Assembly (NCBI GenBank): GCA_028689675.1
Contig: JAQVCS010000004.1
Location: forward strand, 1-64,000
Source of the DNA: Desulfovibrionaceae bacterium
GTDB lineage: Bacteria > Desulfobacterota > Desulfovibrionia > Desulfovibrionales > Desulfovibrionaceae
Length of the DNA stretch: 64,000 nt
Direction: 5' to 3'
Positions 20,416-49,756 of the stretch are shown here, piece by piece. A model generated the notes under the pieces. That model had not been told where the DNA came from. It did not search any database and saw nothing but the letters and a program-made list of their open reading frames with translations. A program made the translations under genes and the position numbers. How positions within the stretch are numbered: position 1 is the stretch's first letter; each line of letters opens with the position of its first letter.

Positions 20416-20793
20416 ATGAAAACTCTTATTAGCACCCCCAAAGCCCCTGCTGCCATTGGCCCCTATTCCCAAGGCACGCGCGCGGGCAACCTTGTGTTCC
20501 TTTCTGGTCAATTGGGCATAGACCCTGCCACAGGCGCTCTGGCTACAGGCGGTGTGGCGGCACAGGCTGTGCAAAGCTTAAAAAATATTCAAGCATTACT
20601 TAAAGAAGTGCAGGCCTCGCCCGAAGACATTGTTAAAACCACCGTCTTTTTAACTGATATGGCCGATTTTAAGGCTGTGAATGAAGCCTATGCTGCGGTT
20701 TTCAGCCAAAATTGTCCTGCCCGCTCATGCATTGCCGTTGCCCAATTACCCTTGGGCGGCCTTGTTGAAATTGAAGCCATTGTAGCGCTTTAG
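20416..20793 (+). CDS. ridA: RidA family enamine/imine deaminase
   Basis: Hydrolyses reactive enamine/imine intermediates such as 2-aminoacrylate released by PLP enzymes. The 125-residue protein has the family marks APAAIGPYSQGTRAGNLVFLSGQLGIDP near the N-terminus, the arginine in CPARSCIAVAQLPLGGLVEIEAIV, and normal length. AAGGAGAG precedes the ATG at 20416; the upstream frame to 20383 lacks a ribosome site. Its TAG stop is the first base triplet of the family 1 element. It is probably transcribed alone. Confidence 0.92.
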   Translation: MKTLISTPKAPAAIGPYSQGTRAGNLVFLSGQLGIDPATGALATGGVAAQAVQSLKNIQALLKEVQASPEDIVKTTVFLTDMADFKAVNEAYAAVFSQNCPARSCIAVAQLPLGGLVEIEAIVAL

Positions 20794-20907
20794 AGCAGAT
20801 TCACTTTCAAAGCACACCTAACGGGAAAGTACCTTCCCCTTGTGAGCTTTGCATGGCAAGGATTTCTTACGAAACCTTGCAGGTATTTTCAATAGTAAAA
20901 TGCTCTA
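20791..20907 (+). repeat. 117-bp inverted-repeat element, family 1, copy A
   Basis: Begins with TAGAGCA, which includes the ridA stop codon, and ends with TGCTCTA. Inside are two hairpins: GGGAA-aagtacc-TTCCC and GCAAGG-a-TTTC-ttac-GAAA-CCTTGC. Copy B (40267-40381) matches it along its whole length on the opposite strand. Flanks TTAG and CTAG resemble a YTAR target duplication. Confidence 0.75.
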
Positions 20908-21162
20908 GCCTGTTCACCTACGGCTGGGGGCAGGCCTCGCTGCTACAATGCGGCTGCCCCCGCCACGGCTGTGCAGCTTTGTATAGAAATAGAGTGCGCT
21001 ACGAGCTTTTAGTAGCAATAGATTCTTTCTCTGACTGCTGCAAAATAGGCTTCATCCATATTGCTTTTGGGCTGATATGTATTTATATTCTATGCAAATG
21101 TTAGCCGTTATTTTTATTGTTTAACAAAATCATATCTACCCTTATCCAGCCAAAGGCGTACT
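20794..21162. other. Intergenic region ridA/diguanylate cyclase
   Basis: Element copy A fills 20791-20907. After it lies an 8-bp stem (GGGGGCAG 20926-20933, CTGCCCCC 20954-20961) and AT-rich sequence leading to the cyclase gene. I see no further gene. Confidence 0.45.
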
Positions 21163-22728
21163 ATGTATTCTGGTTCACTCACTATTCTTCTTTGCAGCGA
21201 CAATACCGCCTTAAAACGTGCCGTGCATGCCTGTCCAGCATTACCTAGCTTCAGCCATACTATTCTGGAAGAATCACCTAGTGAAAGCACACAGCTTGCC
21301 AAGCTTGATGTGCTTATTTTTAGCAGCATACCCGCCAATCTGCAAAAAATAAAAAACTCTTGTAAAAAAAGTGCTCTTCTTGTGCTCTGCCTGCCGCCAG
21401 AAAGACTGGCAACCCTTGATGAAGAAAGCGTTGACTGTGCCACAGAGCTGTGGTGTGCAACAGGCTCTGACGCCTACCTTGCTGGCTGCTGCCGCAAGCT
21501 TTTTGCCTTGCTGCGTGAAAGAAAAGAAGCGCAGCTTACCAGCATTTATTTAGAAAGCACCATTAATAGCGTACCTGATTTAATTTGGTATAAAGATTGT
21601 GCAGGCAAGCATTATAAAGTAAACAACAGCTTTTGCCTTGCAGTTGGTAAAGAAAAAGATCAAATTGAAGGGCGCGGGCATTATAATATTTGGGATATTG
21701 AACCAGAAGACTATGCTAAAGGTAAATATATTTGCCTTGAATCTGAAGAAACCGTTATGCAAACGGGCAAAACATGCCTTTTTGACGAATGCGTTAAAAG
21801 CAAAGCTGGTATGCGCCAGTTTAAAACCTATAAAACACCATTGCGGGATGAAGACGGCACCATTATGGGCACTGTAGGCGTTGCCCATGATGTTACCAAT
21901 TTTGCCAATATGGGCGTGGAGCTTGATTTATTATTGCGCAATCTTCCTTTTGGCATTCTTATTGTGGGTGCAGATGGCCGTATTGTGCGCAGTAATGAAT
22001 ATTTTCAGCACTATTTTCATCTCGAACAGGACGATATTGTAGGGAAAATCTATAAAGAATGGTGTAAGAATTTCTTTCTTGCTGTTCGCCCCCACACTCA
22101 TGATAACCTTGCTGACGTTGACGTGTGCATTCAGGGTAGCATGCGCGTGTTTGAAATGTTGACCGCTGTTATTTATGATATTTTTAAAAACCCTGCTGGT
22201 GCATTTATTCTTTTTTCTGACGTCACCAAAGCACGAGAAAATGAAAAACAAATCCAAATAATTGCCGACACAGATGTGTTGACCAATGCCTATAATCGCC
22301 ACTATTTTTATGAGGTTATGAATAAGAAAGGCCGAGAGCAGCTTTCTGCCCTCGTTTTCCTTGATTTAGATAATTTCAAGGGAACAAACGACACCTATGG
22401 CCATTTGGAAGGGGACAAGGTGCTGCAAACCACAGCAACCCTTGTACGACAGATTTTTCCTGACGATATTCTGGTGCGCTTTGGCGGCGATGAATTTTTG
22501 CTGTGCATCACCCATGATATAAGCATGAACGCCCTGAGCGAAAAAATAACGAGTTTGCTGCACGCTGTGCACAATACATTGTATACCTCAACTATTTCTG
22601 CCAGCGTGGGCATAGCCGATGCCCGTGACCAAAGTATTTCCCTTGATGAGCTGGTGCACAGGGCAGACGTTGCCATGTACCGTGCCAAAAAATCTGGCAA
22701 AAATCGTTTTTGTTTGTACAAGCCCTAG
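21163..22728 (+). CDS. PAS-domain diguanylate cyclase (GGDEF protein)
   Basis: A 521-residue cytosolic signalling protein with no membrane segment seen. The N-terminal 120 residues look like a degenerate response-receiver fold. Two PAS-like domains follow: one from about residue 130 (SIYLESTINSVPDLIWYKDCAGK), ending in the PAC-type segment LRDEDGTIMGTVGVAHDVT, and one from about 260 (LLRNLPFGILIVGADGRIVRSNEYF). The C-terminal GGDEF domain starts near DTDVLTNAYNRHYF, contains LVFLDLDNFKGTNDTYGH and an intact RFGGDEF. It should make cyclic di-GMP. The inhibitory RxxD site before GGDEF is absent (FPDD). No EAL domain is present. AGGCG precedes the start. Confidence 0.88.
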   Translation: MYSGSLTILLCSDNTALKRAVHACPALPSFSHTILEESPSESTQLAKLDVLIFSSIPANLQKIKNSCKKSALLVLCLPPERLATLDEESVDCATELWCATGSDAYLAGCCRKLFALLRERKEAQLTSIYLESTINSVPDLIWYKDCAGKHYKVNNSFCLAVGKEKDQIEGRGHYNIWDIEPEDYAKGKYICLESEETVMQTGKTCLFDECVKSKAGMRQFKTYKTPLRDEDGTIMGTVGVAHDVTNFANMGVELDLLLRNLPFGILIVGADGRIVRSNEYFQHYFHLEQDDIVGKIYKEWCKNFFLAVRPHTHDNLADVDVCIQGSMRVFEMLTAVIYDIFKNPAGAFILFSDVTKARENEKQIQIIADTDVLTNAYNRHYFYEVMNKKGREQLSALVFLDLDNFKGTNDTYGHLEGDKVLQTTATLVRQIFPDDILVRFGGDEFLLCITHDISMNALSEKITSLLHAVHNTLYTSTISASVGIADARDQSISLDELVHRADVAMYRAKKSGKNRFCLYKP

Positions 22729-22743
22729 GGCAAGGTTACTGCG

Positions 22744-22787
22744 AAATAGGCATGTGAGAGCAAGAAAAAGCTCGCCCAAGCCTATTT
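22744..22787 (+). repeat. Hairpin after the GGDEF gene
   Basis: AAATAGGC (22744-22751) pairs with GCCTATTT (22780-22787), with an inner GAGC/GCTC pair (22758-22761, 22770-22773). It lacks a T run; it may protect the 3' end ahead of the terminator at 22826-22860. Confidence 0.4.
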
Positions 22788-22825
22788 GGTAGTAGGTATT
22801 GGCAAAAGCTGCTACAAATGCGGTA

Positions 22826-22860
22826 AAAAGCTCTTCACACCGCATGGGTGAAGAGCTTTT
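22826..22860. terminator. Bidirectional terminator between convergent genes
   Basis: AAAAGCTCTTCAC (22826-22838) and GTGAAGAGCTTTT (22848-22860) form a perfect 13-bp stem with a 9-nt loop. It serves both the GGDEF gene (plus) and the FMN reductase gene (minus). Confidence 0.85.
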
Positions 22861-22909
22861 GCATGCTATGAGGTATAAAAATTACAGCGCCCTCTTCATA
22901 CCCACACCC

Positions 22910-23458
22910 TTAGCAGGGCTGGCATTGCTTTGCCAAAGCCTCCAGCAGCTGCCGCACCTGCCCTTTCACCTTATCATCAAGCACATCGCCATTGGCGGCA
23001 AAAGAGCCTGTAAAGGCATTCACAAAAACCTCTGGCTTATTCAAAGGCAGCAAATTCAAGTACACGCACACCTGACGCAAATGATATTGAGAACGCGCCG
23101 TGCCCATGCCGCCGCCAGCGCCCATAATAGCCACATGCTTGCCGTTCAGCACAGCATTGGCTGGCACTCGTGAAGCCCAGTCCAGCATGTTTTTCAGGGC
23201 TGGTGCCATGGAATAATTATATTCTGTGCTGGCAAATAAAAAAGCATCGGCGCTTTGCATGGCATCGAGCACGCGGCGCACCGCTTCGGGCGTTCCCGCA
23301 GTGGCCACATCTTCATTATACAAAGGCACATCGCCAATATCGGCAGTAATAATTTTCATGTTCTCGGGGGCAAGCTGCATAGCGCAGCGAATAAGCCCTT
23401 TATTGGTCGAAGCAGCGCGCAGGCTGCCCGATAATGCAAATACGGTTAATGAAGACAT
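22910..23458 (-). CDS. NAD(P)H-dependent FMN reductase
   Basis: A 182-residue flavodoxin-fold protein of the NADPH-dependent FMN/quinone/chromate reductase family. Visible are the FMN phosphate loop LSGSLRAASTNKGL near residues 9-22, the ASTEYNYSMAPALKNMLDW motif that contacts the flavin ring, and the later GAGGGMGTARSQYHLR. It transfers electrons from NAD(P)H to quinones or metals; the substrate cannot be told from sequence. AAGGAG precedes the ATG at 23458, which decides against the longer frame to 23500. Confidence 0.88.
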   Translation of the reverse strand: MSSLTVFALSGSLRAASTNKGLIRCAMQLAPENMKIITADIGDVPLYNEDVATAGTPEAVRRVLDAMQSADAFLFASTEYNYSMAPALKNMLDWASRVPANAVLNGKHVAIMGAGGGMGTARSQYHLRQVCVYLNLLPLNKPEVFVNAFTGSFAANGDVLDDKVKGQVRQLLEALAKQCQPC

Positions 23459-23528
23459 GCTCACTCCTTCACACTGCGTGTGATAGCTACAGGGTGGCAA
23501 CTTTTATGCCGCATGCCTTGGGCATGGG

Positions 23529-24002
23529 CTACCCTGCCCCTTCTTCTGTGTGGGCGGCAAGCCACAGCTCCACACCTTCGCGAATAATGAGTGTTTCGCT
23601 CAGGCCAAAGTGGGCAGCAGCAGCTTTTAAGCGCATGCAATCAACATGAGACAGCATAAAAGCCTTTAATTTTTCTTTACCCTTTGATTTTTCCTTGGCT
23701 TTTTCTTTTGTTTTTGTTTTTTCCTTAATTTTTTCTTTACTTTTTACTTTTTCTTTTTGCTTTTCTTTGGATTTTTCTTTATTTTTTTCTTTATTTTTAT
23801 CTTTCATTTTATCTTTGGCTTTAACTTTTTCCTGTGCTTTGGGGCTGACTGCTGTTTTTGTTTCTACCATAACAGGTTCGAGGCTTACAGGGGCAGCAGC
23901 GCCAAGGGCTGGCTCATCGACAGTTGTTTTATCAAATACCGATTGCGGCACAGCCACGACAGGGTTCACACGCTTTGCGGGGCGTGATTTTAATCCACTC
24001 AC
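23529..24002 (-). CDS. Lys/Glu-rich protein with C-terminal helix-helix domain, ParA partner
   Basis: About 157 residues. GAGGAGG touches the ATG at 24008 but lies 6 bases from a GTG at 24002, so I prefer the GTG start. After a basic N-terminus (SGLKSRPAKRVNPVV) and a spacer, residues of roughly 60-110 are an uninterrupted series of KEK/KDK repeats, likely a long charged single alpha helix. The last 45 residues (KLKAFMLSHVDCMRLKAAAAHFGLSETLIIREGVELWLA) resemble a ribbon-helix-helix or similar small DNA-binding unit. It lies 27 bases after parA on the same strand. I infer a ParB-like or adaptor role for the ATPase. No ParB N-terminal nuclease motif is present. Confidence 0.65.
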   Translation of the reverse strand: MSGLKSRPAKRVNPVVAVPQSVFDKTTVDEPALGAAAPVSLEPVMVETKTAVSPKAQEKVKAKDKMKDKNKEKNKEKSKEKQKEKVKSKEKIKEKTKTKEKAKEKSKGKEKLKAFMLSHVDCMRLKAAAAHFGLSETLIIREGVELWLAAHTEEGAG

Positions 24003-24029
24003 AATCATCCTCCTCAAATTCCTTACTGG

Positions 24030-24800
24030 CTATCGGTGCATATTTGTTGCCCTGTGCAAATATGTTTGCACGGCATCACGGTAATCGTGCGCCCCATTAC
24101 TGCCTGCATAATAGGCAAGAATGCTTTGCCCAGCCGAGGGGGCTTCGGCCAATTTTACATTGGTGCGCACGGGCTTTGGAAAAAGAGCATCCCCCCACTG
24201 GTCTTGATGCAAGGCTTGTGCCACATCAAGGTGCAATTTTTTGCGGGCATCATACAGGGTGATGAGCAGCCCATCTAAAGCAAGGCTGGGGTTCAGTGCT
24301 TGACGCACTTTTTCCACAGTGCGGCGCACAAGGCGCACCCCTGCAAGGGCATGATATTCTGCCTGCACGGGAATAAGCACACCATGCGCGGCAGTAAGGG
24401 CATTGATAGTCAACAAACCCAGCGAAGGGGGGCAATCTATCAAAACAAAATCATACTCCACATGGGCAAGGGCGTTTTTCAGTAAATTTTCACGACCATA
24501 GGCCGCCATAAAGTTCAGCTCTGCCTCGGCAAGGTTAATATTGGCGGGCAGCAAGTCAATATTCTGCGCCACGGGCAGCACGGCCTGCTGCACAGTGTTT
24601 GCCTGCGCCATCACTTCATAGGTGGTGATGCTTTGCGCCAAAGGGTCAAAACCGCAGGCATCAGTCAGGTTACCTTGCGCGTCCAAATCAAGCAGCAAGA
24701 CTTTTTTATTATGCTCTGCCGCCAGCAATGCACCCATATTATGCACTGTTGTTGTTTTGCCCACGCCGCCCTTTTGATTAAACACTGCTGTAATATACAT
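24030..24800 (-). CDS. parA: ParA-family ATPase
   Basis: A 256-residue P-loop ATPase of the ParA/Soj/MinD class used in DNA or cargo positioning. The deviant Walker A KGGVGKTTTVHN sits near residues 10-21, LLDLDAQGNLTDACG follows near 40-55, and YDFVLIDCPPSLGLLTINAL marks Walker B. I start at MYITAVFNQKGG (24800), the usual family N-terminus; the ribosome site there is weak, and an earlier ATG at 24857 would add a hydrophobic leader. The gene next to it lacks ParB motifs, so this may be an orphan ParA rather than the chromosomal Soj. No origin or gidAB genes are nearby. Confidence 0.85.
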   Translation of the reverse strand: MYITAVFNQKGGVGKTTTVHNMGALLAAEHNKKVLLLDLDAQGNLTDACGFDPLAQSITTYEVMAQANTVQQAVLPVAQNIDLLPANINLAEAELNFMAAYGRENLLKNALAHVEYDFVLIDCPPSLGLLTINALTAAHGVLIPVQAEYHALAGVRLVRRTVEKVRQALNPSLALDGLLITLYDARKKLHLDVAQALHQDQWGDALFPKPVRTNVKLAEAPSAGQSILAYYAGSNGAHDYRDAVQTYLHRATNMHR

Positions 24801-25107
24801 ACTTGCCCCCACAGCTTGCCTTGCCTTTTGAAAAAAATATGGCATGGAAAGCTGCATAAGTCAAAAACAGAGCCGGCAATACAATACATTTGTAACCAAA
24901 AAGACACAAAGCAATGTGTCGCCCCTCTGTCTTTTTGCCTAGCCTGTACTTATTTTGCTACTGTTTGTTCACGCAATATATATTTATGCACCTGTGTGGC
25001 ACTTCCTGCCCAAGCAGCTTGTGCACTTGGGTCTTGCTTCGCAAGCGCTTTCAGCATAGTATTTGGTCACATTTTTTTGCCTTGGGCTATGAATAAAGGA
25101 GTATTGC
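24801..25107. other. Divergent intergenic region parA / 131-residue gene
   Basis: Contains the hairpin at 24898-24936 and otherwise mixed sequence. I see no convincing -35/-10 pair and no RNA gene. Confidence 0.4.
24898..24936. terminator. Terminator-like hairpin in divergent region
   Basis: AAAAAGACA (24898-24906) pairs with TGTCTTTTT (24928-24936), and an alternative inner stem GACAC/GTGTC exists (24903-24907, 24916-24920). It lies between two divergent genes, so its target transcript is unclear. Confidence 0.4.
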
Positions 25108-25503
25108 ATGAAACCAGAAGCCGCACTTCCTCTGGAAGAAATTGATGCCATTGTTGCCAAAAATTTTTCTTCAAGCCCAGACAGGGTAGAAATAACACAG
25201 GCCGTTATCAACACAGTGCTTTCTATGCTCAATGCCAAATTGGCTGACAATGCAGAAACAAAAGGGCTGTTTCAGGCTGGCGTGGCTCAGGGCAAAATTG
25301 TTGCCGCCCCCTGCCTTGAGCTGGGCGCCTGCATTCAGCAGCATGTGCACAAGGCTGGCTGCCCTGCCGAGGAAATAAAAGAAGCCATACGGCAGGAATA
25401 TTTACGCAAAACGGCCTGTGCGCAAGCCGTGCTGCAAGCCACGCTGGCAGAGGCAAAAGACAAATTTTATACCCCGCAAAATCCAGCAGATTTTACATTT
25501 TAA
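25108..25503 (+). CDS. Conserved-looking hypothetical protein, 131 residues
   Basis: A strong ribosome site (AAAGGAG) 9 bases before the ATG and normal codon use support a real gene. The product is soluble and mostly helical by composition, with a mid-protein Cys pair (PCLELGACIQQHV) and two further Cys. I see no known motif. It ends 31 bases before a hairpin and is divergent from parA, so it is probably monocistronic. Confidence 0.65.
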   Translation: MKPEAALPLEEIDAIVAKNFSSSPDRVEITQAVINTVLSMLNAKLADNAETKGLFQAGVAQGKIVAAPCLELGACIQQHVHKAGCPAEEIKEAIRQEYLRKTACAQAVLQATLAEAKDKFYTPQNPADFTF

Positions 25504-25533
25504 ATTTTCTGCCCCGCAGACTCTTTTGTATGC

Positions 25534-25567
25534 TTGCCCCTGCCTCGTTATTTGACGGCAGGGGCAA
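25534..25567 (+). terminator. Hairpin between hypothetical gene and pseudouridine synthase
   Basis: TTGCCCCTGCC (25534-25544) and GGCAGGGGCAA (25557-25567) form a perfect 11-bp stem with a 12-nt loop. There is no T tract, so termination would be inefficient. Confidence 0.5.
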
Positions 25568-25656
25568 AGGTAGCTATACAAGCACGCCGCGCATCAGTGC
25601 GGCATCACTTTTTTTCAGCCATACGGGGCAGCGTGCCCTTGGGCACAGGTACAAGC

Positions 25657-26583: not shown

Positions 26584-26589
26584 CGCAGG

Positions 26590-26740
26590 CTCAGGGCATT
26601 TGAGCACTATAGAAATTTTGTTTGCTGACAAGGAAGGTGCGGCTTGTATGCAGGCAGTGTACTCTTATACTCGGCCAGAATAAAAGCAAAACTCTGCCGC
26701 CGCCAGTGAGCAACAAAAGGAAGTGCCAACACGCCCTAGG
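26590..26740 (+). repeat. 151-bp inverted-repeat element, family 2, copy b
   Basis: Contains the family blocks AAATTTTGTTTGCTG, AAGGAAG, GGCTTGTATGCAGGCAG, CTCGGCCAGAATAAAA. Ends are CTCAGGGCATTTGAGCA and, inverted, CCTAGGGCGTGTTGGCA. The right-hand CTAG contains the stop codon (TAG, 26736-26738 on the minus strand) of the PTS EIIC gene, and the left end starts 7 bases after the pseudouridine synthase stop. It therefore fills the whole space between two convergent genes. Confidence 0.75.
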
Positions 26741-27362
26741 CCAGAAAAAAGACATGCAGCACAATAAGCACAAGCAAAGCGCCCAGCAAAATATAGGCAC
26801 GCTGTGTGCGCAGCGAAAGCACAGCCCCCACAGCCGCCACGGTATACACCACAGGCCACGTTAAGCCCGCAGCCACAGGCAGCCAATTCTGGGCATACAG
26901 CAAAGCCACACTGTGCATATACAGCGCAGCAAGCCCGCTGTAGACAAGCATGTGCATAACAAAGCGCTGCCCAATGGCGGTATAAGTGAGCCTGCGCGGG
27001 CTTTGCTTGACCCCTGCCCCAGCAAGCCAGCGCTGCACAGGTTCCAGCCCTGCATTATGCCACAAGCGTAGGCGGCACTCTAACCACGAGCCCAAATAGG
27101 CGCAGAGTAAAGCAAGAAAAAGAGGCAGCATGAGGGCTTCTGGTGTTGTCCAGCGGTAATGCAAGCACAAAGGCACAAAAAGCCAAAAGGAAAGGAAGTT
27201 CAAAGGCGGCACAACGCTGCCCAGCGGCACAACATCAAGCCAGAGCAATTCCAGCACAATGCCCGCAGGCAAAACAACATCCCACGCGCCTGTGGCATAG
27301 CCAAACACCAAGGCGAGAAAAAGGGGGCGATCAAGCAGGCCTATACAAAAAGAATGCCGCAC
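26736..27362 (-). CDS. PTS mannose-family EIIC-like membrane protein
   Basis: A 208-residue protein with about six hydrophobic segments, matching the sorbose/mannose-type EIIC permease (GLLDRPLFLALVFGYATG at the N-terminus, LELLWLDVVPLGSVVPP, a polar middle loop, C-terminal membrane segments). The start is a GTG at 27362 with GGGG close upstream, so it is somewhat uncertain. EIIB and EIIA lie directly upstream on the same strand, but an EIID subunit normally needed for transport is absent. The stop codon lies in the end of repeat element copy b. Sugar specificity cannot be told. Confidence 0.75.
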   Translation of the reverse strand: MRHSFCIGLLDRPLFLALVFGYATGAWDVVLPAGIVLELLWLDVVPLGSVVPPLNFLSFWLFVPLCLHYRWTTPEALMLPLFLALLCAYLGSWLECRLRLWHNAGLEPVQRWLAGAGVKQSPRRLTYTAIGQRFVMHMLVYSGLAALYMHSVALLYAQNWLPVAAGLTWPVVYTVAAVGAVLSLRTQRAYILLGALLVLIVLHVFFLA

Positions 27363-27413
27363 TGCCCCTGTCAGGGCAAAAAAAAAGCGTAGAGCACTGT
27401 GTTTATGATAGGG

Positions 27414-27872: not shown

Positions 27873-27879
27873 GCAGCAC

Positions 27880-28302: not shown

Positions 28303-28440
28303 AGCAACAATCTCCCTGCGCGGCAGTGCTTTTTATGCACCTGCACAACAGCATACAATACTATTCCAAGGGCATATATCTTTTCCCGCATGGGGGCAAC
28401 CCAAGGGGGCGCTTTCCCTTTTTTGGGGCGGCATGCCCTG

Positions 28441-29316: not shown

Positions 29317-29373
29317 GCAACCAATCCCATGGCGGGCAGGGTTACTATGCCCCTGCCCGCCTCAAAGTCTAAC

Positions 29374-29904: not shown

Positions 29905-29945
29905 ATATCGCTCCCGCGTTCTGCCCTTTTGTATAAAAGGGACGG

Positions 29946-31379: not shown

Positions 31380-31407
31380 GGTACAATTTTCTGCCGTGTA
31401 AAAGGGT

Positions 31408-31568: not shown

Positions 31569-31579
31569 TGTATGGTCAG

Positions 31580-33292
<1,713 letters not shown>

Positions 33293-40026: not shown

Positions 40027-40074
40027 ACCCACAATATGCTTATATAGAAAAAAAATTTCTAAAAAGAGGGAAGT

Positions 40075-40269
40075 ATGCATCAGATAAATCATGCTGCTGT
40101 GCGCGCCATGCTTATTGCCAACCTTGCCGCTGCAGGGGTGACAGATTGGCCAGAGGCTGTTCACATTTTACATTCGGTCATCAACAGCCTGAGCAATACA
40201 CATGGCGTGGAAGCCGTGCTTGTTTTGCGCACCACCACCCCCCTGCCCGGTGCTGAAATTCCCTGCTAG
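40075..40269 (+). CDS. Small orphan protein, 64 residues
   Basis: GAGGGAAG lies a few bases before the ATG, which supports translation. The product (MHQINHAAVRAMLIANLAAAG...) is soluble with a mostly helical appearance and a single Cys as last residue. I recognise no domain. The stop codon TAG is supplied by the end of repeat element family 1 copy B, so the protein may have been longer before insertion. An isolated location behind an AT-rich island with a large palindrome suggests a small accessory gene. Confidence 0.5.
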   Translation: MHQINHAAVRAMLIANLAAAGVTDWPEAVHILHSVINSLSNTHGVEAVLVLRTTTPLPGAEIPC

Positions 40270-40381
40270 CGCATTGTAACTTTAAAAATACTCGCAAGGT
40301 TTCGTAAGATATCCTTGCACTTAAAGCGCACAGGGGAATGTACTTCCCCGCTATATGCGCTTTGAAGATCAACCTGCTTAA
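40267..40381 (-). repeat. 115-bp inverted-repeat element, family 1, copy B
   Basis: Read on the minus strand it matches copy A from end to end: CTTCAAAGCGCA, GGGGAAGTACATTCCCC hairpin, GCAAGGATATCTTACGAAAC and CCTTGC hairpin, ending AATGCGCTA. The final TAG (plus strand 40267-40269) is the stop codon of the small ORF. Confidence 0.75.
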
Positions 40382-40595
40382 GATACCCGCACAGTACAGT
40401 GCATAAAAAAGCACAAGGCTTTTGGCTTGCCTTGTGCTTTTTTTATATGCTCATATGCCACGCACGAGGGCTTGTGAACACTACAGAATTTTTTTTACTA
40501 GCAAGAAAGACGAAGCGTTTATGGAAAGTGCGCTCTTATCATACCCACCCCTAATAAAAGAAAAGCCAAACGCCGCCAGCGGAAAAAATTCAGGT
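40270..40595. other. Intergenic region made mostly of two repeat elements
   Basis: Family 1 copy B fills 40267-40381 and family 2 copy c fills 40465-40606. The 80 bases between carry an imperfect hairpin around AAAAAGCACAAGGC...GCCTTGTGCTTTTTT (40407-40442) that can act as a terminator. No gene is present. Confidence 0.55.
40407..40442 (+). terminator. Terminator between the two repeat elements
   Basis: AAAAAGCACAAGGC and GCCTTGTGCTTTTT pair perfectly around a short loop, followed by further T residues. It can stop transcription of the small ORF on the plus strand and, with its A tract, also the minus strand. Confidence 0.75.
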
Positions 40596-40606
40596 TCACA
40601 CGGCCT
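40465..40606 (+). repeat. 142-bp inverted-repeat element, family 2, copy c
   Basis: The most diverged copy: CGAGGGCTTGTGAACA at the left and, inverted, CAGGCCGTGTGAACC at the right. It retains CTACAGAATTTT, AGCAAGAAAGACG and CGCCGCCAGCGG. The right end encodes the last codons and the TGA stop (40596-40598) of the bioD-bioA gene. Confidence 0.65.
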
Positions 40607-42950
40607 GATAATGCTTGCCTGCAATAGCCTCCACAACAGCGGCGCACAGGCAGGCTATATCCTGCGGGGGGCTTATGTAGGGCGGCATAACATAAACCAG
40701 CCTGCCAAAGGGGCGTATCCACACGCCGCGCTGCACAAAAAAAGCCTGCAAGGCTGCCATATCCACAGGCTGTTCCAATTCCACTACGCCAATTGCCCCC
40801 AGCACGCGCACATCCTTTACGCCGTGCAGGGCGCGGCATGGGGCAAGCCCTTGCTGCAAGCCTGCCTCTATGCCTGCCACGGCCGCCTGCCAATTGCTGT
40901 CCAGCAGAGCTGTAAGGCTGGCCAAGGCCACAGCGCAGGCCAAGGGGTTGGCCATAAAGGTAGGGCCGTGCATAAAAACATTGCCCCCAGCGCAAATGCC
41001 CTCTGCCACCCGCTGTGTGCAGGCAGCAAAAGAAAAGGTCATAGTGCCGCCAGTAAGTGCCTTGCCGCCGCACAAAATATCGGGATGTATATCTGCCCAT
41101 TCTGCGGCAAACATTGTACCCGTGCGTCCAAAGCCCGTGGCAATTTCATCAAGAATGAGCAGCACGTCATAGCGGCGGCATAATGCTGCCACCCTACGCA
41201 AATAGTCAGGATGATAGAAATGCATGCCGCCAGCGCCCTGCACCACAGGCTCAACAATAAATGCCGCCAGCTCACTGCCATGCTGGGCAAAAGCCTGCTC
41301 TACAGCCGCAACCGAAGCAGGGTCAAAGGGCTGGTCAAAGCGGCATGAGGGGCGCTCAATAAAAATCTGCTGCGGCAAAAGCCCTGTAAAGAGGCTGTGC
41401 ATGCCATTGATAGGGTCGCAAACAGACATAGCACCCACAGTGTCACCATGGTAGCCGCCGCGTGGCACAAGCACCTTGGTGCGCTTGCTGTGCCCTTGTG
41501 CCTGCCAATATTGCAAAGCCATTTTCAGGGCAACTTCCACCGCTACCGAGCCAGAATCGGCATAAAAAATGCGCTCCAGCCCGCGCGGCAGCAGGGGCAG
41601 CAGCACACGCGCCAAATCCACAGCTGGCCTGTGCGTTATGCCGCCAAACATCACATGCGGCATACTGGCTGCCTGCTGCTGCAAAGCCTGCACAAGGCGC
41701 GGGTGACCATAGCCGTGCAGGGCGCACCACCACGAAGACATCCCGTCAATAAGCTCGCGCCCATCCCGCAAGCGCAGCCTGTTGCCCTGTGCCGAAAGCA
41801 CTTCATACACAGGCAAGGGCTGGGTGGCACTGGTGTAGGGGTGCCAAAGATGCTTTTGGTCAAAATCCAGCAAGGCCTGAGGGCTAAGCTCTGGCAGGCG
41901 TGTAGCATGCGGCACTGCCCCCTGCGGGGCACTGTGCTGCATAGGGGCTGACACTGAATGCGGGGGAACAGGGGCTACCCCTGCTGGCGCTGAGGGCAAG
42001 CCCCCCCTGCGTAAAGGGGTGAGCGCTACATTATGGCCTGTACCCGCGGGCATTGTGCGGGAAAATACTGCTGCTGTACTGGGGAAAGGCTCTGCACAGG
42101 TTTGGGGCAGGCCAGAGTGTGCAAGCGCTGCTGGCTTTGTTGCACCTGCTGGCGCTGAGCCAAGCTGCGTCAGCAATTTTTCCACAAAAGGCTGCAAGAC
42201 CTGCGCCATGCGTTGCCACACAGCCGCATTGCCCAAGGGCACAGAGCCCTGTGCCGCAAGTGCGGGCTCATAGGGCAGCACAGCCAAAGGGGCAACATCG
42301 GCCAGCACACGGCTGTTTTCTTGCTGCACAAGGCGGGCATGCTCCTGCTGTGGCTCTGGTGCTGTGCGTACCAGCACAATGCCCGCCACAGGCACAGCAC
42401 GGGCACGCAAGGCCGCTATACTGAGCAAAACATGGTTGATAACCCCTAATTTATCGGCAGCAGCGATAATGACAGGCAAGCCCAGATGCTGCGCCAAATC
42501 AAGCATGGTTTCGCCGCCAAAATCAGTGCAGGCCTGCGCTTGCCCCATGGTTGCGCTGGCCACATGCCAATTCAGGGGCACAAGCAGCCCGCCAGCCCCT
42601 TCAACCAGCACAGGGCTGTGCCCACAAGCGGCCTTATGCACGGCGGCGGCCACGTCCTGCACCTGTAAAGAAGCCCCTTCAGCCGCAGCCGCAAGGTGCG
42701 GTGAGGCTGGTAGCGGAAAATGGCTCAGGCTTTGCCAGCAGCGCACTGCTGTCACATCGGCCACGGCCATGGCATAGCGGCAGGTGTCGCATTCGGGGTC
42801 ATCGTCCCCCAGCACCCCTGTTTGCACAGGCTTGATGGCCAAAGCTTTGCTGCCGCGCAGTAAAAAAGCGCGCAGCAAGGCGGCCGTCAGCGTTGTCTTA
42901 CCTGCGTCGGTATCCGCACCGCTAATAAAAAAACCACGCAGCCCGCTCAT
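40596..42950 (-). CDS. bioDA: Fused dethiobiotin synthetase - DAPA aminotransferase
   Basis: A 784-residue fusion of two consecutive biotin steps. Residues 1-262 are BioD, an ATP-dependent carboxylase with P-loop GADTDAGKTTLTAALL (11-26) and VLVEGAGGLLVPL. Residues 263-352 form an Ala/Pro/Ser-rich linker. Residues 353-784 are BioA, a PLP aminotransferase using S-adenosylmethionine, with HLWHPYTSATQPLP, DGMSSWWCALHGYGHP and the lysine motif ILCGGKALTGGTM. The order is the reverse of the reaction order. The ATG overlaps the bioB stop by four bases. The same D-A order is known from plant BIO3-BIO1. Confidence 0.93.
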   Translation of the reverse strand: MSGLRGFFISGADTDAGKTTLTAALLRAFLLRGSKALAIKPVQTGVLGDDDPECDTCRYAMAVADVTAVRCWQSLSHFPLPASPHLAAAAEGASLQVQDVAAAVHKAACGHSPVLVEGAGGLLVPLNWHVASATMGQAQACTDFGGETMLDLAQHLGLPVIIAAADKLGVINHVLLSIAALRARAVPVAGIVLVRTAPEPQQEHARLVQQENSRVLADVAPLAVLPYEPALAAQGSVPLGNAAVWQRMAQVLQPFVEKLLTQLGSAPAGATKPAALAHSGLPQTCAEPFPSTAAVFSRTMPAGTGHNVALTPLRRGGLPSAPAGVAPVPPHSVSAPMQHSAPQGAVPHATRLPELSPQALLDFDQKHLWHPYTSATQPLPVYEVLSAQGNRLRLRDGRELIDGMSSWWCALHGYGHPRLVQALQQQAASMPHVMFGGITHRPAVDLARVLLPLLPRGLERIFYADSGSVAVEVALKMALQYWQAQGHSKRTKVLVPRGGYHGDTVGAMSVCDPINGMHSLFTGLLPQQIFIERPSCRFDQPFDPASVAAVEQAFAQHGSELAAFIVEPVVQGAGGMHFYHPDYLRRVAALCRRYDVLLILDEIATGFGRTGTMFAAEWADIHPDILCGGKALTGGTMTFSFAACTQRVAEGICAGGNVFMHGPTFMANPLACAVALASLTALLDSNWQAAVAGIEAGLQQGLAPCRALHGVKDVRVLGAIGVVELEQPVDMAALQAFFVQRGVWIRPFGRLVYVMPPYISPPQDIACLCAAVVEAIAGKHYQAV

Positions 42951-43876: not shown

Positions 43877-43941
43877 ACAATTCCTTATGCGCGGCCATAA
43901 AGACTGCGCAGCAAAAATAATGCGTAAACAGCCCTTGTGTT

Positions 43942-44664
43942 TTATCTATCCCACGGCAAGCTCGGGGGCACGGCTTCACCCAAAAAGCGCTCATCCATAT
44001 AGCGCACGGCCAGCCCTTCCAGCTTGTTTTGCCCCACAGTAAGCGCGCTTGGGGCAGGGTCTGCCACAAAGGCAAGGGCAGCACGCTGCTCAAAAGCATT
44101 CACGGCACTCAAGCTGAGGTTGTCGTGCACAGCGGCACTGGTGCCCGTATTGGCAATACGCTCACGATATTCCAGCGTCAATTTTTCTCTGTCACTGCTG
44201 TTGAAGCGCACAAAGCGGCGCACCAGCCAGCGCACCTCTGCGGGCTTTTCTGCTGCCAACGGGGCAAAGGCGTCACGCTGCCCATTCTGAATGTATGTTC
44301 CTGCGCGGAAATTGTACCCAGCAATACTGGCTGACCCTTCATTAACCGTAAAGGGCGGCATGCCATCGCCAGACCAGCGCCAATTTTCTGGCAGGGAGCT
44401 GTAGGCAACAAGAGCAAGCTTTTGAGCCTCGGGGGCAGCGTACACAGACAGCCACATGTGCAGGGGCAAGCCCCCCATCATATCCGCACTATGTAAACTG
44501 GGGGAAGCAGAGCCAGCCGTACGCAGGGGCAGCTCTGCCGCACGCAGGGCAAAGACCTGCTCTGGCACAAACAAACCATTTTTCACCAAACCGTTTTGCG
44601 AAGGTTGGCACGCGCCCAACAGCAGAGCAGCAAACACAGTCAGCACAAGGACGAATGATTTCAT
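43942..44664 (-). CDS. Putative lipoprotein, unknown function
   Basis: Encodes 240 residues. The N-terminus MKSFVLVLTVFAALLLGACQPSQ is a lipoprotein signal with lipobox LGAC, so the mature protein starts at Cys19 and is anchored to a membrane. GAGGAAAG precedes the ATG at 44664, deciding against the longer frame. The mature part has a central WSGDGMPPFTVNEGSASIAGYNFRAGTYI and a likely beta-rich composition; I recognise no family. It lies 65 bases upstream of bioB on the same strand but need not be linked to biotin. Confidence 0.75.
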   Translation of the reverse strand: MKSFVLVLTVFAALLLGACQPSQNGLVKNGLFVPEQVFALRAAELPLRTAGSASPSLHSADMMGGLPLHMWLSVYAAPEAQKLALVAYSSLPENWRWSGDGMPPFTVNEGSASIAGYNFRAGTYIQNGQRDAFAPLAAEKPAEVRWLVRRFVRFNSSDREKLTLEYRERIANTGTSAAVHDNLSLSAVNAFEQRAALAFVADPAPSALTVGQNKLEGLAVRYMDERFLGEAVPPSLPWDR

Positions 44665-45047
44665 GGTCTTTCCTCGGTAAAAAAGGGGACAAGAAATAAG
44701 GCAGGCTCGTGCCAACACAAGGCTTGGCAAAGCAATGCCTGACAGCAAAGAGAATACCGCCCCTTGCGGCAAAAGGAAAGGCCTAGATGCTGTCATCAAA
44801 AGAACTCTAACCCATTGAAAATATTGATAGAATTATAAAATTTGCAAATAAAATTTTCTTAATTAAATCAATGTATTATATCTATATGTCGACAGTATCT
44901 AGGGCGTGTTTACCACTACAGGAATTTTGTTCGCTGGTAAGGAAGATAAGGCTTGCATGCAGAGAGTGTACTTTTATCGCATTCGACTGGAATAAAAACT
45001 AAAATCTAAGGCCGCTAGCGGGTAAAAGACCCTTATGGCAACACGCT
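44665..45047. other. Intergenic region with AT-rich stretch and repeat element
   Basis: About 80 bases (44815-44895) are very AT-rich and may hold the promoter of the lipoprotein gene. The family 2 element copy d fills 44899-45051. No other gene is seen. Confidence 0.5.
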
Positions 45048-45051
45048 CTAG
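44899..45051 (+). repeat. 153-bp inverted-repeat element, family 2, copy d
   Basis: The best preserved ends: CTAGGGCGTGTT (44899-44910) and AACACGCTCTAG (45040-45051), 11 of 12 inverted matches. Both ends show CTAG, which could be a target-site duplication as in IS5-type insertion. Shared blocks include ACAGGAATTTTGTTCGCTGG, AAGGAAGATAAGGCTTGC and CTGGAATAAAA. The right CTAG contains the stop codon of the AEC transporter gene (TAG, 45048-45050 on the minus strand). Confidence 0.8.
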
Positions 45052-46016
45052 AGCAAAGGCAACAGCCACAAGACCACAGGCAGTACCAGCACCAAGGCCG
45101 CCGTGCTGGTGAGCCAGCAGGTATTGGCCAAATCCAAATCGAGGCCGTACAAGGAAGGGGGCACAAGGGCATTCATAGCAACGGGCATGGACGAAAGCAC
45201 CAGCACCACTTGCAGGGGCAGCCCCCCTTCCACAGCCCCCAAGCCCAAATACCAAGCAAGCGCCGTAATGCAGCAAGGCGCAAGGGCAAATTTAATGCAC
45301 GCCACAGCCAACCACTGCCGTGTGTATGCCTTCATGCGCGAAAGCCGCAAGCTCATGCCTATACCCGTTAAAAAAAGTATGGTGGCAAGCAGCACCAGCC
45401 CGCTGGCCAGCGTGCCGCACCATGCAGGGCGGGGAAGCGCTGCCCAGCGCAGGGCAAAACCTGTACCCAAGGCCGCCAGCACCCACAAAAAAACAGGCTC
45501 GGCCAGCACAGCATACAGGGGCTTGCCGCCGCCAGCCTTTGCCGTTCCAAAAGAGCGCGCCACAGGCAGCCCCACGGCAAAATAGTAGACATCCTCACAC
45601 AGCCTGTACAAAGCCACAAGGGCAATAGTGCGCTCACCAAGGGCAAGCACACAAATAAGGCCGCCCAGCGCGCCAATATTGGTAAAGGTACCGCAGCAAA
45701 ACAGACTGCCAGTCTGGGCACGGTTCAAGTGTAAAAGACGGGCAGCCCCAAGCGCCAGCATGCCCCCAACCACCCAATTAGCAACACCAAGCAGGGGCAA
45801 AGCCAGCAAGCGGGCATCGGGCTGCGGCAAGCCCCACAAGGAAAGTAAAGCCGCACAAGGTATGCAGCCAAACAAGGCAAGCAATTGCATGCGCTGGCGC
45901 AAAACCGGCAACGAGCCCGAAAACACTATAAAGCCAGCCTCTACGCCACGGCGCAGGGTATAGCCAGCAGCAAGGCTGCCCACAATAAGCGCAAAGGTAA
46001 GGAACAGTGTTCCCAT
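45048..46016 (-). CDS. AEC-family transporter
   Basis: A 322-residue inner-membrane protein with about ten hydrophobic segments in two halves, matching the auxin efflux carrier (AEC) family, which in bacteria includes malate and malonate permeases. FTNIGALGG in the first half and SSMPVAMNALVPP in the second are the characteristic half-helix breaks. It lies 7 bases after the sigma-54 activator gene and is surely co-transcribed with it. The substrate is unknown. The stop codon comes from the end of repeat element copy d. Confidence 0.82.
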   Translation of the reverse strand: MGTLFLTFALIVGSLAAGYTLRRGVEAGFIVFSGSLPVLRQRMQLLALFGCIPCAALLSLWGLPQPDARLLALPLLGVANWVVGGMLALGAARLLHLNRAQTGSLFCCGTFTNIGALGGLICVLALGERTIALVALYRLCEDVYYFAVGLPVARSFGTAKAGGGKPLYAVLAEPVFLWVLAALGTGFALRWAALPRPAWCGTLASGLVLLATILFLTGIGMSLRLSRMKAYTRQWLAVACIKFALAPCCITALAWYLGLGAVEGGLPLQVVLVLSSMPVAMNALVPPSLYGLDLDLANTCWLTSTAALVLVLPVVLWLLPLL

Positions 46017-46023
46017 AGCAAAC

Positions 46024-47019
46024 CTATGCCTGCCGTTTTTTTAATTTTTCAATCAAGGTGGTGCGCTTAATGCCCAAAAAGGCTGCTGCCTGATTTTTTA
46101 TGCCGCCAGCCTGTGCAAGGGCTGCATCAATCAGGCTGTTTTCCATACTTTCCAAAAAATCTTTCAAGGTCATGCCTGTTGCGGCAAGCTGCTGCACCGT
46201 GGGCGGCACAAAGTCGGGCACGGCCGCGGGCGCAGCAGGCTGCCCTGCCCTTTTTCCCTGCATGGCAAGGGGCAAATCATGCACCTGCACAAGTGCCCCT
46301 TCGGTCAGCACGCTCAGGCGCTCCATGCAATTTTCCAGCTCGCGCACATTGCCCGGCCAAGCATAGGCCATAAGCAAGGCCTGCACCTCTGGCGAAAGGC
46401 GCAGCACAGCCCGCCCTTCTCTTTTGCAAAAAAATTGCAAAAAATGGCTGGCCAGCAAAAGAATATCTTCTCCACGTTCACGCAGCGGGGGCAAATGCAC
46501 GGGTATAACATTCAGCCGATAAAATAAATCTTCACGAAAACGCCCCGCCGCTACATCGGCCGCCAGATTACGGCTGGTTGCTGCCACAAGGCGCACGTCT
46601 ATTTTTTTGCCGCCCACCCCGCCCACGCGCTCAATAACTTTTTCTTGCAGCACACGCAGAATTTTTACTTGCAGGGCAATATCCATTTCGCCAATTTCAT
46701 CAAGAAATATCGTACCGCCATCGGCCTGTTCAAAACGCCCGGGGTAAGCACGCAGGGCATGGGTGAAAGCACCCTTCTCATGCCCAAACAGTTCCGATTC
46801 AAGCAATTCCCGCGGTATTGCCCCGCAATTGATGGGCACAAAAGGCATAGAAGCACGCTTGCTTTGCTGGTGCAGGGCGCGCACAAAAAGTTCCTTGCCC
46901 GTGCCCGACTCGCCCGTAATCAGCACGGTGCATTCTGTGGGGGCAACCTTGCGCAACAGGCTAAAAACCTCGCGCACAAGGCTGCTTTGCCCTATAATTG
47001 TGCTGTGCTCTGCCTCCAT
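46024..47019 (-). CDS. Sigma-54 activator lacking a sensor domain
   Basis: A 331-residue protein consisting only of the AAA+ domain (Walker A GESGTGKE, residues 36-43; FLDEIGEMD) and a C-terminal Fis-type helix-turn-helix (IKNQAAAFLGIKRTTLIEKLKK). There is no receiver, GAF or PAS domain. The sigma-54 contact loop reads GAFTHA (83-88) instead of GAFTGA; I have seen this variant in related activators, so it may still work. AGAGGG precedes the ATG. It lies upstream of, and nearly touching, the AEC transporter gene, which it may share a transcript with or regulate elsewhere. Confidence 0.88.
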   Translation of the reverse strand: MEAEHSTIIGQSSLVREVFSLLRKVAPTECTVLITGESGTGKELFVRALHQQSKRASMPFVPINCGAIPRELLESELFGHEKGAFTHALRAYPGRFEQADGGTIFLDEIGEMDIALQVKILRVLQEKVIERVGGVGGKKIDVRLVAATSRNLAADVAAGRFREDLFYRLNVIPVHLPPLRERGEDILLLASHFLQFFCKREGRAVLRLSPEVQALLMAYAWPGNVRELENCMERLSVLTEGALVQVHDLPLAMQGKRAGQPAAPAAVPDFVPPTVQQLAATGMTLKDFLESMENSLIDAALAQAGGIKNQAAAFLGIKRTTLIEKLKKRQA

Positions 47020-47042
47020 ACCGCCCTCTTTCTTTAGCTCTT

Positions 47043-47071
47043 TCTATACTGTCAATACACTGACACATCAA
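47043..47071 (-). promoter_or_regulatory. Promoter and dyad for the activator-transporter operon
   Basis: On the minus strand TTGATG (47066-47071) and TATAGA (47043-47048) are 17 bases apart. The spacer contains TGTCA-N6-TGACA (47050-47065), a CRP/FNR-type dyad. A bound protein would sit between the boxes and probably repress. The ATG lies 24 bases beyond the -10. Confidence 0.55.
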
Positions 47072-47162
47072 GAAAAGCTAGTGAAATGTCTTGAATTTCT
47101 TGCATACATAGTTCAAATTGAGAAAAGTATACTTGCCCCTGTGTCATTTTTTTGGAGCGTGC

Positions 47163-49691
47163 ATGAGTTCTTCCTTCCTTCCCGATGAAAACCACCTGCC
47201 TATTGATGGCCTGCTGCCTGCACTACAGCAGCATTTGACCGCACAAGCCTTGCTGGTGCTTTCTGCCCCCCCAGGGGCTGGCAAAACCACGCGCATTCCC
47301 CTTGCTTTGCTTACTGCCCCGTGGCTGGCAGGCAAGCAAATTATTATGCTTGAACCACGCCGTTTGGCGGCAAAGGCCGCGGCAAGGCGTATGGCCGCCA
47401 GCCTGAGCGAGCCCTGCGGGCAGCGTGTGGGCTATTGCATGCGCATGGAACGCTGCTTCAGCCCGCAAACGCGCATTCTGGTGGTGACCGAGGGCGTGCT
47501 GACGCGCATGCTGCACGATGACCCCGAGCTTGCCAAAGTGGGCTGCCTTATTTTTGACGAATTTCACGAGCGCTCATTGCATGCCGATGTGGGGCTGGCG
47601 CTGGCGTTGGAATGCCACCATGCTCTGCGGCCAGATTTGCGCCTGCTTGTGATGTCTGCCACGCTGGAAACTGAGGCTGTGGCAGCCCTGCTGGGGAATT
47701 GCCCTGTGTTGACCAGCCAAGGGCGGGCATACCCCGTAGCCTTACGCTATATGCCACCGCGCCCCAATGCCCGCGGTTTTATGCCGCGCATTGAAGAGCA
47801 GGTTGCGGCCGCCATTCTGCTCTTGCTGCGCGAGGAAGAAGGCAGCCTGCTCGCCTTTGTGCCCGGTGCGGGAGAAATTCGTGCTGTTCAAGCACTACTT
47901 GAAGAACAGTTACCGCCAGACGTGCAGCTTTACCCCCTGTATGGCGACCTGCCCCCAGCACAGCAAGATGCCGCCATTGCCCCAGCCGCGCCGCAGCAGC
48001 GTAAAGTGGTGCTGGCAACAGCCCTTGCCGAAACATCTCTGACCATTGAAGGCGTGCGCCTTGTGGTGGATAGCGGCCTTGCCCGCAGCCTGCGCTATGA
48101 CAGCAGCACGGGCATGAGCACCCTAGTAACCCAGCCCCTTTCTTTGGCACAGGCAGCACAAAGGGCAGGGCGAGCTGGGCGCACAGCAGCGGGGCTATGC
48201 CTGCGCCTGTGGAAAAGGGAAGAAGAAATAAACTTTCGCCCCCACTCTGCCCCCGAAATAAGCATGGCCGATTTAAGCCCTCTGTGCCTCAACCTTGCCG
48301 TGTGGGGGGCACAGCCCGAAAGCTTGGCATGGCTTACGCCGCCCCCTGCCAGCGCATTTGCCCATGCCCGCAACAGCTTGCAGGCCTTGCATGCGCTCGA
48401 TGCCCAAGGGCGCAGCACTGCCATGGGGCGCGCCATGCTGCGCCTGCCCCTGCACCCACGCCTTGCCTGCATGGTATTGCAAGCCAGCACACTGGGCTTT
48501 GCCGCCTGTGCCTGCTGCCTTGCGGCTTTGCTTGAAGAGCGAGATTGCCTGCCCGCTGCGGCTGGGCACACAAGCAGCGACATAGGCCTGCGCCTGCATG
48601 CTGTGTGTACAAACAGGCCACATACGGCCTTGGTTGCCCGCATTCGCCGTGCTGCCGAGCAGCTTTTCCGCCTTTGCGGCGGGCAGGGAGCGCTGTTTGA
48701 GCACGCTCTCCAGCAGGAAGAACAATGCGGGCTTTTGCTTAGCCTTGCTTGGCCAGAGCGCCTTGCCCAGCAATGCGGCGGCGGGCGTTTTCGCCTGCGC
48801 GGGGGGCGTGCTGCCAGCCTGCCCCAAACAGACCCCCTTGCCCGCGAAGCTTTTCTTGCCATTGCCACGCTGGATGCCGTGCGCGAGTGCATTTTTTTGG
48901 CCGCACCCATCAGCAAGGCCACGCTGGAACAATACTATGCAACCGAAATAAGCCAGCACGAGCTTGTGTACTGGGATGTGCGCGAAGAAGCCGTGCTGGC
49001 GCGGCAGCAGCATCAGCTTGGGGCATTACTGCTGCATGATGCCCCCCTAAGCACAGCAGATCCGCAAGCCCTTGCCCAAGCCCTGTGTGCTGGCATTCGC
49101 CACATGGGCATAGCCTGCCTGCCATGGACAAACACCCTGCGCCAATGGCAGGCGCGCGTGCTGCTGTTGCGCCAGCTCCAGCCCGAGCTCTGGCCTGATG
49201 TATGTGACGCCACCCTTGAAGCACAGCTTGAAGAATGGCTTGCCCCTTTCCTGACGCAATGCACACGCAAAAGCCACTTAAAACAGTGCGACCTCAAGGC
49301 CGCATTGCACAGCCTGCTCAGCTATCAGCAAGGGCGCGATTTGGAAAAATTAGCACCAGAGCGGCTTATTGTGCCCTCTGGCTCAAGCATCAGCATTGAT
49401 TATTGCCAACAGGGGCATCCTGTTCTGGCGGCTAAGCTGCAAGAGCTTTTTGGCTGGGAAGAAAGCCCGCGCATTGCTGGCGGCGCTGTGCCCCTTACCC
49501 TGTACCTAAATTCCCCAGCAGGCCGCCCCCTGCAAATTACCCAAGACTTGGGGCACTTTTGGCGTAATGGCTATGCGCAGGTGCGTGCCGATATGCGCGG
49601 ACGCTACCCCAAGCACCCATGGCCAGAAAAGCCCTTGCAGGCACAGGCTACCAAGTTAACCAAGAAAAAGCTGGAAGCCCTGCACAAATAG
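47163..49691 (+). CDS. hrpB: ATP-dependent helicase HrpB
   Basis: An 842-residue DEAH-family RNA helicase of unknown cellular task. The motifs are in order: LSAPPGAGKTTRIP (motif I), LEPRRLAAKAAARRMA (Ia), DEFHERSLHAD (II), VMSATLE (III), and RAGRAGRTAAG (VI), then the HA2 region and the HrpB C-terminal domain (LQITQDLGHFWRNGYAQVRADMRGRYPKHPWPE). GGAG precedes the ATG at 47163; the longer frame to 47118 lacks a ribosome site. Its stop codon TAG is the first triplet of repeat element family 1 copy C. Confidence 0.94.
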   Translation: MSSSFLPDENHLPIDGLLPALQQHLTAQALLVLSAPPGAGKTTRIPLALLTAPWLAGKQIIMLEPRRLAAKAAARRMAASLSEPCGQRVGYCMRMERCFSPQTRILVVTEGVLTRMLHDDPELAKVGCLIFDEFHERSLHADVGLALALECHHALRPDLRLLVMSATLETEAVAALLGNCPVLTSQGRAYPVALRYMPPRPNARGFMPRIEEQVAAAILLLLREEEGSLLAFVPGAGEIRAVQALLEEQLPPDVQLYPLYGDLPPAQQDAAIAPAAPQQRKVVLATALAETSLTIEGVRLVVDSGLARSLRYDSSTGMSTLVTQPLSLAQAAQRAGRAGRTAAGLCLRLWKREEEINFRPHSAPEISMADLSPLCLNLAVWGAQPESLAWLTPPPASAFAHARNSLQALHALDAQGRSTAMGRAMLRLPLHPRLACMVLQASTLGFAACACCLAALLEERDCLPAAAGHTSSDIGLRLHAVCTNRPHTALVARIRRAAEQLFRLCGGQGALFEHALQQEEQCGLLLSLAWPERLAQQCGGGRFRLRGGRAASLPQTDPLAREAFLAIATLDAVRECIFLAAPISKATLEQYYATEISQHELVYWDVREEAVLARQQHQLGALLLHDAPLSTADPQALAQALCAGIRHMGIACLPWTNTLRQWQARVLLLRQLQPELWPDVCDATLEAQLEEWLAPFLTQCTRKSHLKQCDLKAALHSLLSYQQGRDLEKLAPERLIVPSGSSISIDYCQQGHPVLAAKLQELFGWEESPRIAGGAVPLTLYLNSPAGRPLQITQDLGHFWRNGYAQVRADMRGRYPKHPWPEKPLQAQATKLTKKKLEALHK

Positions 49692-49756
49692 AGCAGATTC
49701 ACTTTCAAAGCTCACGCAGCGGGGAAGTGCATTCCCTTTGTGCGTATAGAGCATTG
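49689..49756 (+). repeat. Truncated inverted-repeat element, family 1, copy C
   Basis: TAGAGCAGATTCACTTTCAA matches copy A closely and begins with the hrpB stop codon. GGGGAAGTGCATTCCC follows as in copy B. The second half (GCAAGG...CCTTGC hairpin) is missing and is replaced by a tail ending TAGAGCATTG, the first of the three direct repeats at 49729-49878. Confidence 0.65.

Follow-up and report, generated by a model that had tools for sequence, protein, structure and literature searches.

The window analysed here, the first 64,000 nucleotides of a contig from a draft genome of the Desulfovibrionaceae (the source genome), contains seven short repeats that belong to two families, F1 (copies A, B, and C) and F2 (copies a, b, c, and d), most of them lying at the ends of genes (Table 1). 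F1 is 119 bp long with the ends (C/T)TAGAGCA...TGCTCTA(G/A), F2 is about 150 bp long with the ends TAGGGCGTGTT...AACACGCCCTA, and both have the general traits of MITEs in that they are short, non-coding, bounded by terminal inverted repeats, and present in many copies. The sequence-only reading of the window had noted that element ends coincide with stop codons in six of the seven copies. The coincidence is exact in five of the seven, but copy a touches no stop and copy c merely contains a TGA. The starts that it had assigned to the three F1 copies, at the TAG of ridA, of a 64-residue ORF, and of hrpB, agree with the coordinates, and of the three F2 copies that it described as supplying or containing stops, b and d provide an exact TAG while the TGA of c lies 12 nt inside. 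RidA reaches profile position 120 of 121 in its Pfam match (PF01042) and hence is untruncated, the HrpB_C domain of HrpB is complete (Pfam match), the transporter at F2-d has the same length as its ortholog, and the bioD-bioA protein at F2-c is 4 aa longer than an element-free ortholog. There was no Pfam match for the 64-aa ORF at F1-B or for the gene at F2-b, which had been read as a PTS EIIC gene. Downstream of hrpB the sequence GCATTCCCTTTGTGCGTATAGAGCATTG occurs in three near-tandem copies, the first of them within F1-C.

Table 1. Repeat copies, insertion sequences, and other features discussed in the text. Coordinates with no prefix are those of the window; C and L prefixes denote contigs and extracted loci.
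Feature	Coordinates	Strand	Relation to stop codons or other remark	Basis
F2-a	20218-20368	+	between divergent genes, touches no stop	family-model match, gene distances
F1-A	20790-20908	+	left TA coincides with that of the ridA stop TAG (20791-20793)	
F2-b	26590-26739	-	5' end gives the TAG of minus-strand gene 26736-27308	
F1-B	40266-40382	-	TA coincides with that of TAG 40267-40269, stop of the 64-aa ORF 40075-40269	
F2-c	40464-40608	-	bioD-bioA TGA (40596) 12 nt within the element, not at its terminus	
F2-d	44898-45051	-	5' end gives the TAG of minus-strand transporter gene 45048-46016	
F1-C (degenerate)	49688-49785	+	starts at hrpB TAG 49689-49691	
GCATTCCCTTTGTGCGTATAGAGCATTG repeats	49729-49877		3' of hrpB	
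IS630-family IS	C8:46962-47951 (L078 about 9855-10843)			
IS630-family IS	C8:167858-168846		contig end	
IS5-type (DUF4096) IS	L146 970-1815; L147 921-1758		two IS, L146 from the source genome; ends TAGATAGTGTCGTCAATT and TAGGGTCAGGACTCATT	
Mini-elements	C22:45576; C22:60248; C20:238477			
Third repeat family	C16:139043; C22:6003; C23:104586; C13:11739			
Adjoining F1 and F2	C26:6946-7212			
F2 cluster, G113	L339 2501-3259			

Covariance models of the two families identified at least 67 copies of F1 and at least 53 copies of F2 in the 2.36-Mb draft genome, both numbers being minima because the best 150 candidates were scored, and genes were called with a coding-model script in about 4.5 kb on either side of each copy. 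An element end falls exactly on the TAG or TAA of a flanking gene in 48 of the 120 copies (26 of 67 for F1 and 22 of 53 for F2), and as three copies have both ends on stops there are 51 stop-matching ends overall. Stops 1-6 nt outside an element were found in none of the 120 copies and stops inside an element in four, and no copy lies within a called gene. Since stops make up just 7.1% of the noncoding-plus-stop TA sites (513 of 7226), the enrichment is real (binomial p = 4e-24), and the tabulation against a TA expectation that the sequence-only reading had called for thus confirms that the coincidence of element ends with stop codons is a genome-wide property. That it arose by chance is a notion that can be given almost no weight: the original observation did concern just seven copies, but the pattern holds in 48 of 120 and is repeated in other genera. 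Elsewhere in the genome there are mini-elements of about 36 bp that resemble two F1 ends joined without the interior, and a third repeat family that starts with TAGAGCAATTTT..GAAATTGCTCT(G)GCAAGAGCGGG.

The placement of the elements is readily understood from their target. Both families are flanked by YTAR, with C or T before and G or A after the two TAs and with TTAA being rare, and the outer base on one side varies independently of that on the other, so that the duplicated target is the TA rather than a 4-mer; F1 likewise has a TA at either end with independent outer bases. Stop codons are rich in YTAR. The preferred sites CTAG and CTAA/TTAG are occupied at 26 of 193 stops (13.5%), compared with 10 of 89 other noncoding preferred sites up to 60 nt downstream of a stop (11.2%; Fisher p = 0.70), 4.7% of 5'-proximal sites near gene starts, and 3% of other intergenic sites, these rates being subject to the caveat that neighboring repeats widen some intergenic regions. 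Hence stops are taken like any nearby 3' site and the depletion concerns everything else. A strong excess at stops beyond target preference, considered for F1 and F2 pooled in the source genome, disappears when other 3'-proximal sites are used for comparison. One of the two explanations originally put forward for the window, that the elements insert into CTAG/YTAR targets and that these comprise stop codons, is therefore borne out by the YTAR flanks, the TA duplication, the equal rates, and the stops of orthologs described below, and YTAR targeting is sufficient to account for the stop placement of F1. One F1 and one F2 copy adjoin each other with a common end (C26), so that the end of any element in turn offers a target for the next one.

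Comparison with element-free loci shows that the stop can be older than the element. Genome G002, of the same genus as the source genome, gave no F1 or F2 match, and among the 14 element-ended genes that have a homolog in the G002 stretches compared, nine have exactly the same length as the homolog and ten are within 1 aa (the ridA match, at just 51% identity, could be to a paralog); several of these G002 homologs stop at CTAG. A scan of genome contigs for HrpB gave no match. A direct case is pyrR, where a site filled by F2 in G078 (...TCACAC-TAGGGGCTG...F2...CAGCCCC-TAGGGGCG...) is empty in seven genomes of the same genus (for example ...TCACACTAGGGCGGCG...), all with the stop TAG in the context CTAG or TTAG. 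In G078 the element is bordered by C-TA on one side and TA-G on the other, and the TA is duplicated. At this one filled/empty locus, the stop was already present when F2 inserted into its TA, doubled the TA, and rebuilt the TAG with its first G. Integron attC-like cassettes and insertion of the Y1/REP type were considered while the 3' TA seemed to be missing in G078 and G047, and both were rejected; the empty pyrR site and the TA duplication argue against a Y1-type mechanism. That the elements instead truncate genes by creating an in-frame TAG in coding DNA, the coincidence being a by-product of pseudogene formation, is highly improbable. As a TAG is present at every F1 and F2 end, one insertion frame in three would yield a stop in this way, but the other two frames would put stops inside the element, and there are only the four such stops against 51 exact ends. 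Furthermore, the proteins are full length relative to their homologs and the RidA and HrpB domains are complete. A truncation origin is thus rejected by both the distribution of stop positions and the lengths of homologs.

Candidates for the transposases that mobilize these elements are found in the source genome itself. It has two IS630-family IS copies (DDE_3 match) with the ends (TA)GAGCATTTCAACTTT, one of which has an apparently split transposase frame and one of which adjoins an F1 copy with a single TA common to both. The F1 ends share 14 and 15 of 18 bases with those of the resident IS. The nearest named relatives of this IS are in Desulfovibrio, and IS630 relatives with recognizable ends from many phyla mostly start with TAGAGC and lie within CTAG or CTAA (32 of 36). 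One IS5-type (DUF4096) IS of the source genome (L146) is similar at its ends to F2 of other genera. Its end TAGATAGTGTCGTCAATT matches the F2 end TAGACAGTGTCGTCACGA of G010 at 14 of 18 bases, and its ends match those of F2 in G047 at 12 of 18 but those of F2 in the source genome at just 10 of 18. From these similarities we infer that F1 is probably moved by an IS630-type transposase and F2 possibly by one of the IS5/DUF4096 type.

While F1 is adequately described by its target, F2 is distinct in its distribution and orientation. Among 149 genomes of the family, a merged model found F2 in 45, representing 15 of 44 genera and many with at least 20 copies, and in each of eight genomes from a single genus a DNA query with F2 gave 41-50 matches, which were almost all copies of the element. 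The fraction of copies on stops reaches up to about 90%, with 14 of 15 in G047, 11 of 13 in G078, and about 15 of 18 full-length copies in G111, although in the source genome 31 of 53 copies are off stops. At stops F2 is overwhelmingly in the sense orientation, with a sense to antisense ratio of 74:5 (p = 8e-17) pooled over seven genomes: the source genome (21:3), G010 (7:0), G047 (14:0), G078 (11:0), G148 (5:0), G033 (1:0), and G111 (15:2, with two more copies that have possible stops at both ends). G078 and G111 are congeneric and have some orthologous sites in common (e.g., GcvT), and so these orientation events are not all independent; the G078 genes (PhnE, GcvT, PyrR, phosphofructokinase, MoeA, FlhA, and others) were recognized by reading the proteins, without a family search. 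Thirty further loci, each from a different genome, partly overlap the seven-genome set and include some orthologous sites; here 22 copies are sense and two antisense. By comparison, F1 at stops is 14:13 and F2 copies off stops in the source genome have no bias (eight sense and seven antisense between tandem genes). The polarity of F2 is therefore a real and replicated pattern that the target and simple purging do not explain, and together with the very large share of copies on stops in some genomes it exceeds what the target and purging from coding regions predict. A polar target was rejected as its cause because the four-base targets of F2 (TTAG 7, CTAA 5, and CTAG 8) have no polarity. In G113 a stretch of about 760 bp has four F2 copies, of which three follow one another directly, head to tail. 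In G078 and G111 (loci L320-L332 and L379-L398) the TA at the 3' end of F2 is frequently replaced by TG or CA (CTAG to CTGG or CCAG), a change resembling the loss of CTAG by very-short-patch repair, and in the same copies the 5' TA, being the stop, is retained.

Selection for a function at the 3' end such as message stability, the other explanation initially offered, has to be considered separately for the two families. For F1, orientation is unbiased and covariation is barely above shuffles and comes mainly from a few column pairs, so that RNA selection finds no support. The F2 core, in contrast, is conserved across genera, and its outer stem varies between copies but remains paired, with covariation far above shuffles and slides (89 doubly changed stem cells vs. 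21 in shuffles, and 71 vs. 15 in a second comparison), the alignments having been fitted to the structure. G-U intermediates are few in the F2 stems, and an excess of G-U over A-C was seen in one alignment, that of the source genome (A7, 107:48), and not in two others (A5, 14:10; A6, 29:26), so that concerted copying between the arms is no less possible than RNA selection. That F2 is better preserved at stops was rejected since copies there score no differently from others in the source genome (p = 0.95). There was no relevant Rfam match for F1 or F2 in the window or for F2 in seven loci, and no intrinsic terminator (a GC-rich stem followed by a T run) in the two F2 copies scanned. Hence a 3'-end function is unsupported for F1, while for F2 the sense orientation and the conserved, covarying stem are in keeping with it.

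How the polarity of F2 arises may be viewed in more than one way. The possibility that we tentatively, and with rather low confidence, place ahead of the other two is that F2 has been domesticated or selected as a 3'-UTR RNA element, in which the long sense hairpin at the stop would stabilize, process, or insulate the upstream message, copies being kept for that reason. Such a role would accord with the sense bias in both the pooled and the one-per-genome sets, the wide distribution in the family, the paired but variable stem, and the situation in G047, where F2 occupies the gap between operon genes, reaching from the stop to about 20 nt ahead of the next start, with the next gene in most copies beginning about 14-36 nt later (L340-L354). 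Set against it are the few G-U intermediates with no excess over A-C in A5 and A6, which copying of the arms could mimic, the equal scores of copies at and away from stops, the majority of source-genome copies that are off stops, and the lack of a terminator or an Rfam match noted above. An extended version, which is somewhat more doubtful, would see in F2 a palindromic, mobile 3'-UTR module of the whole family. With its conserved core and with terminal repeats that can be exchanged, it would spread among the Desulfovibrionaceae by entering stops and be kept only or mainly in sense, and compensatory change would maintain its stem because of a role in the mRNA of the gene or operon upstream. 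Similarly doubtful, and in our view rather unlikely, is that polarity is set at insertion by a complex that reads the direction of the gene or of transcription or an asymmetric stop context. The bias is present in genomes with many similar and presumably young copies (G078 and G111) and in the source genome is confined to stops, but the same terminal repeat is found at both ends of F2, the target is palindromic with no polarity between CTAA and TTAG, and F1 with the same targets is unbiased.

REP/REPIN and ERIC sequences are, like F1 and F2, palindromic repeats found at the 3' ends of genes and between the genes of operons. Unlike F1 and F2, REPs depend on Y1 transposases and are not known to duplicate a TA.

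Among the closest known counterparts is the RUP element of Streptococcus pneumoniae, a 107-bp sequence mobilized in trans by IS630-Spn1 (PMC2229807, PMC3049150), which is similar in being about 110 bp long with no gene, in having terminal repeats like those of a resident IS630-family IS, and in its TA duplication, about 100 copies, and stable hairpins. To judge from the descriptions, RUP differs in that its core is, as far as known, unrelated and its host is from another phylum, and we found no description of exact stop-codon placement in the RUP papers (PMC2229807, PMC3049150). The Correia/NEMIS elements of Neisseria are likewise 100-155 bp, folded, and intergenic with TA at the termini, but as described they have other ends, a 107-bp form is reported as fused into ORFs, and stop-codon anchoring was not found described for them (PMC2229807). 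IS630 itself prefers the TA in CTAG (Tenzen and Ohtsubo, 1991, as cited in PMC2170065) and, according to that account, has the same target and TA duplication as F1 and F2, although the IS630 elements are autonomous whereas F1 and F2 are short and non-autonomous, with a consequence for the stop codon. MITEPsy1 of Pseudomonas syringae is a 100-bp MITE of queried IS5 assignment that inserts at CTAG or YTAA, but it has a 4-nt target duplication and few copies, and these are inside genes and transposons as well as intergenic (PMC3189936). The term 'stop codon' is absent from a 2024 review of prokaryotic MITEs (PMC10969869), and no description of stop-anchored, sense-oriented MITEs was found in a search that left the subscription literature mostly outside.

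We propose, with considerable confidence, that F1 and F2 are non-autonomous MITEs and that insertion at the TA of YTAR, restoration of the stop, and purging elsewhere explain the coincidence of their ends with stop codons. The elements would insert at the TA of YTAR, best at CTAG and next at CTAA or TTAG, with duplication of the TA, and any TAG or TAA stop with C or T immediately before it would constitute such a target. With G as the first base of the element at both ends, the gene after insertion would read ...Y-TA-G, and thus an in-frame stop would be restored in either orientation and whether the original was TAG or TAA. Insertions in genes or far from their 3' ends are presumably purged by selection, so that the surviving copies would be concentrated on stops and just downstream of them. 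The target, the TA duplication, the greater age of the stop relative to the element (at one locus), the equal rates, and the unchanged protein ends have all been shown above, and to these would be added for F2, as we think, selection on the 3'-UTR RNA, with antisense copies being harmful or sense copies being tolerated or even useful.

Hence a mobile element may become nearly harmless by simple means, as a TA target combined with G as the first base rebuilds the stop that it enters. This gives a testable neutral baseline for the positions of short repeats in compact genomes. The polarity of F2 lies outside that baseline, and whether F2 is a passenger or a regulator at the 3' ends of genes becomes a question that can be tested in cultured relatives within Desulfovibrio.
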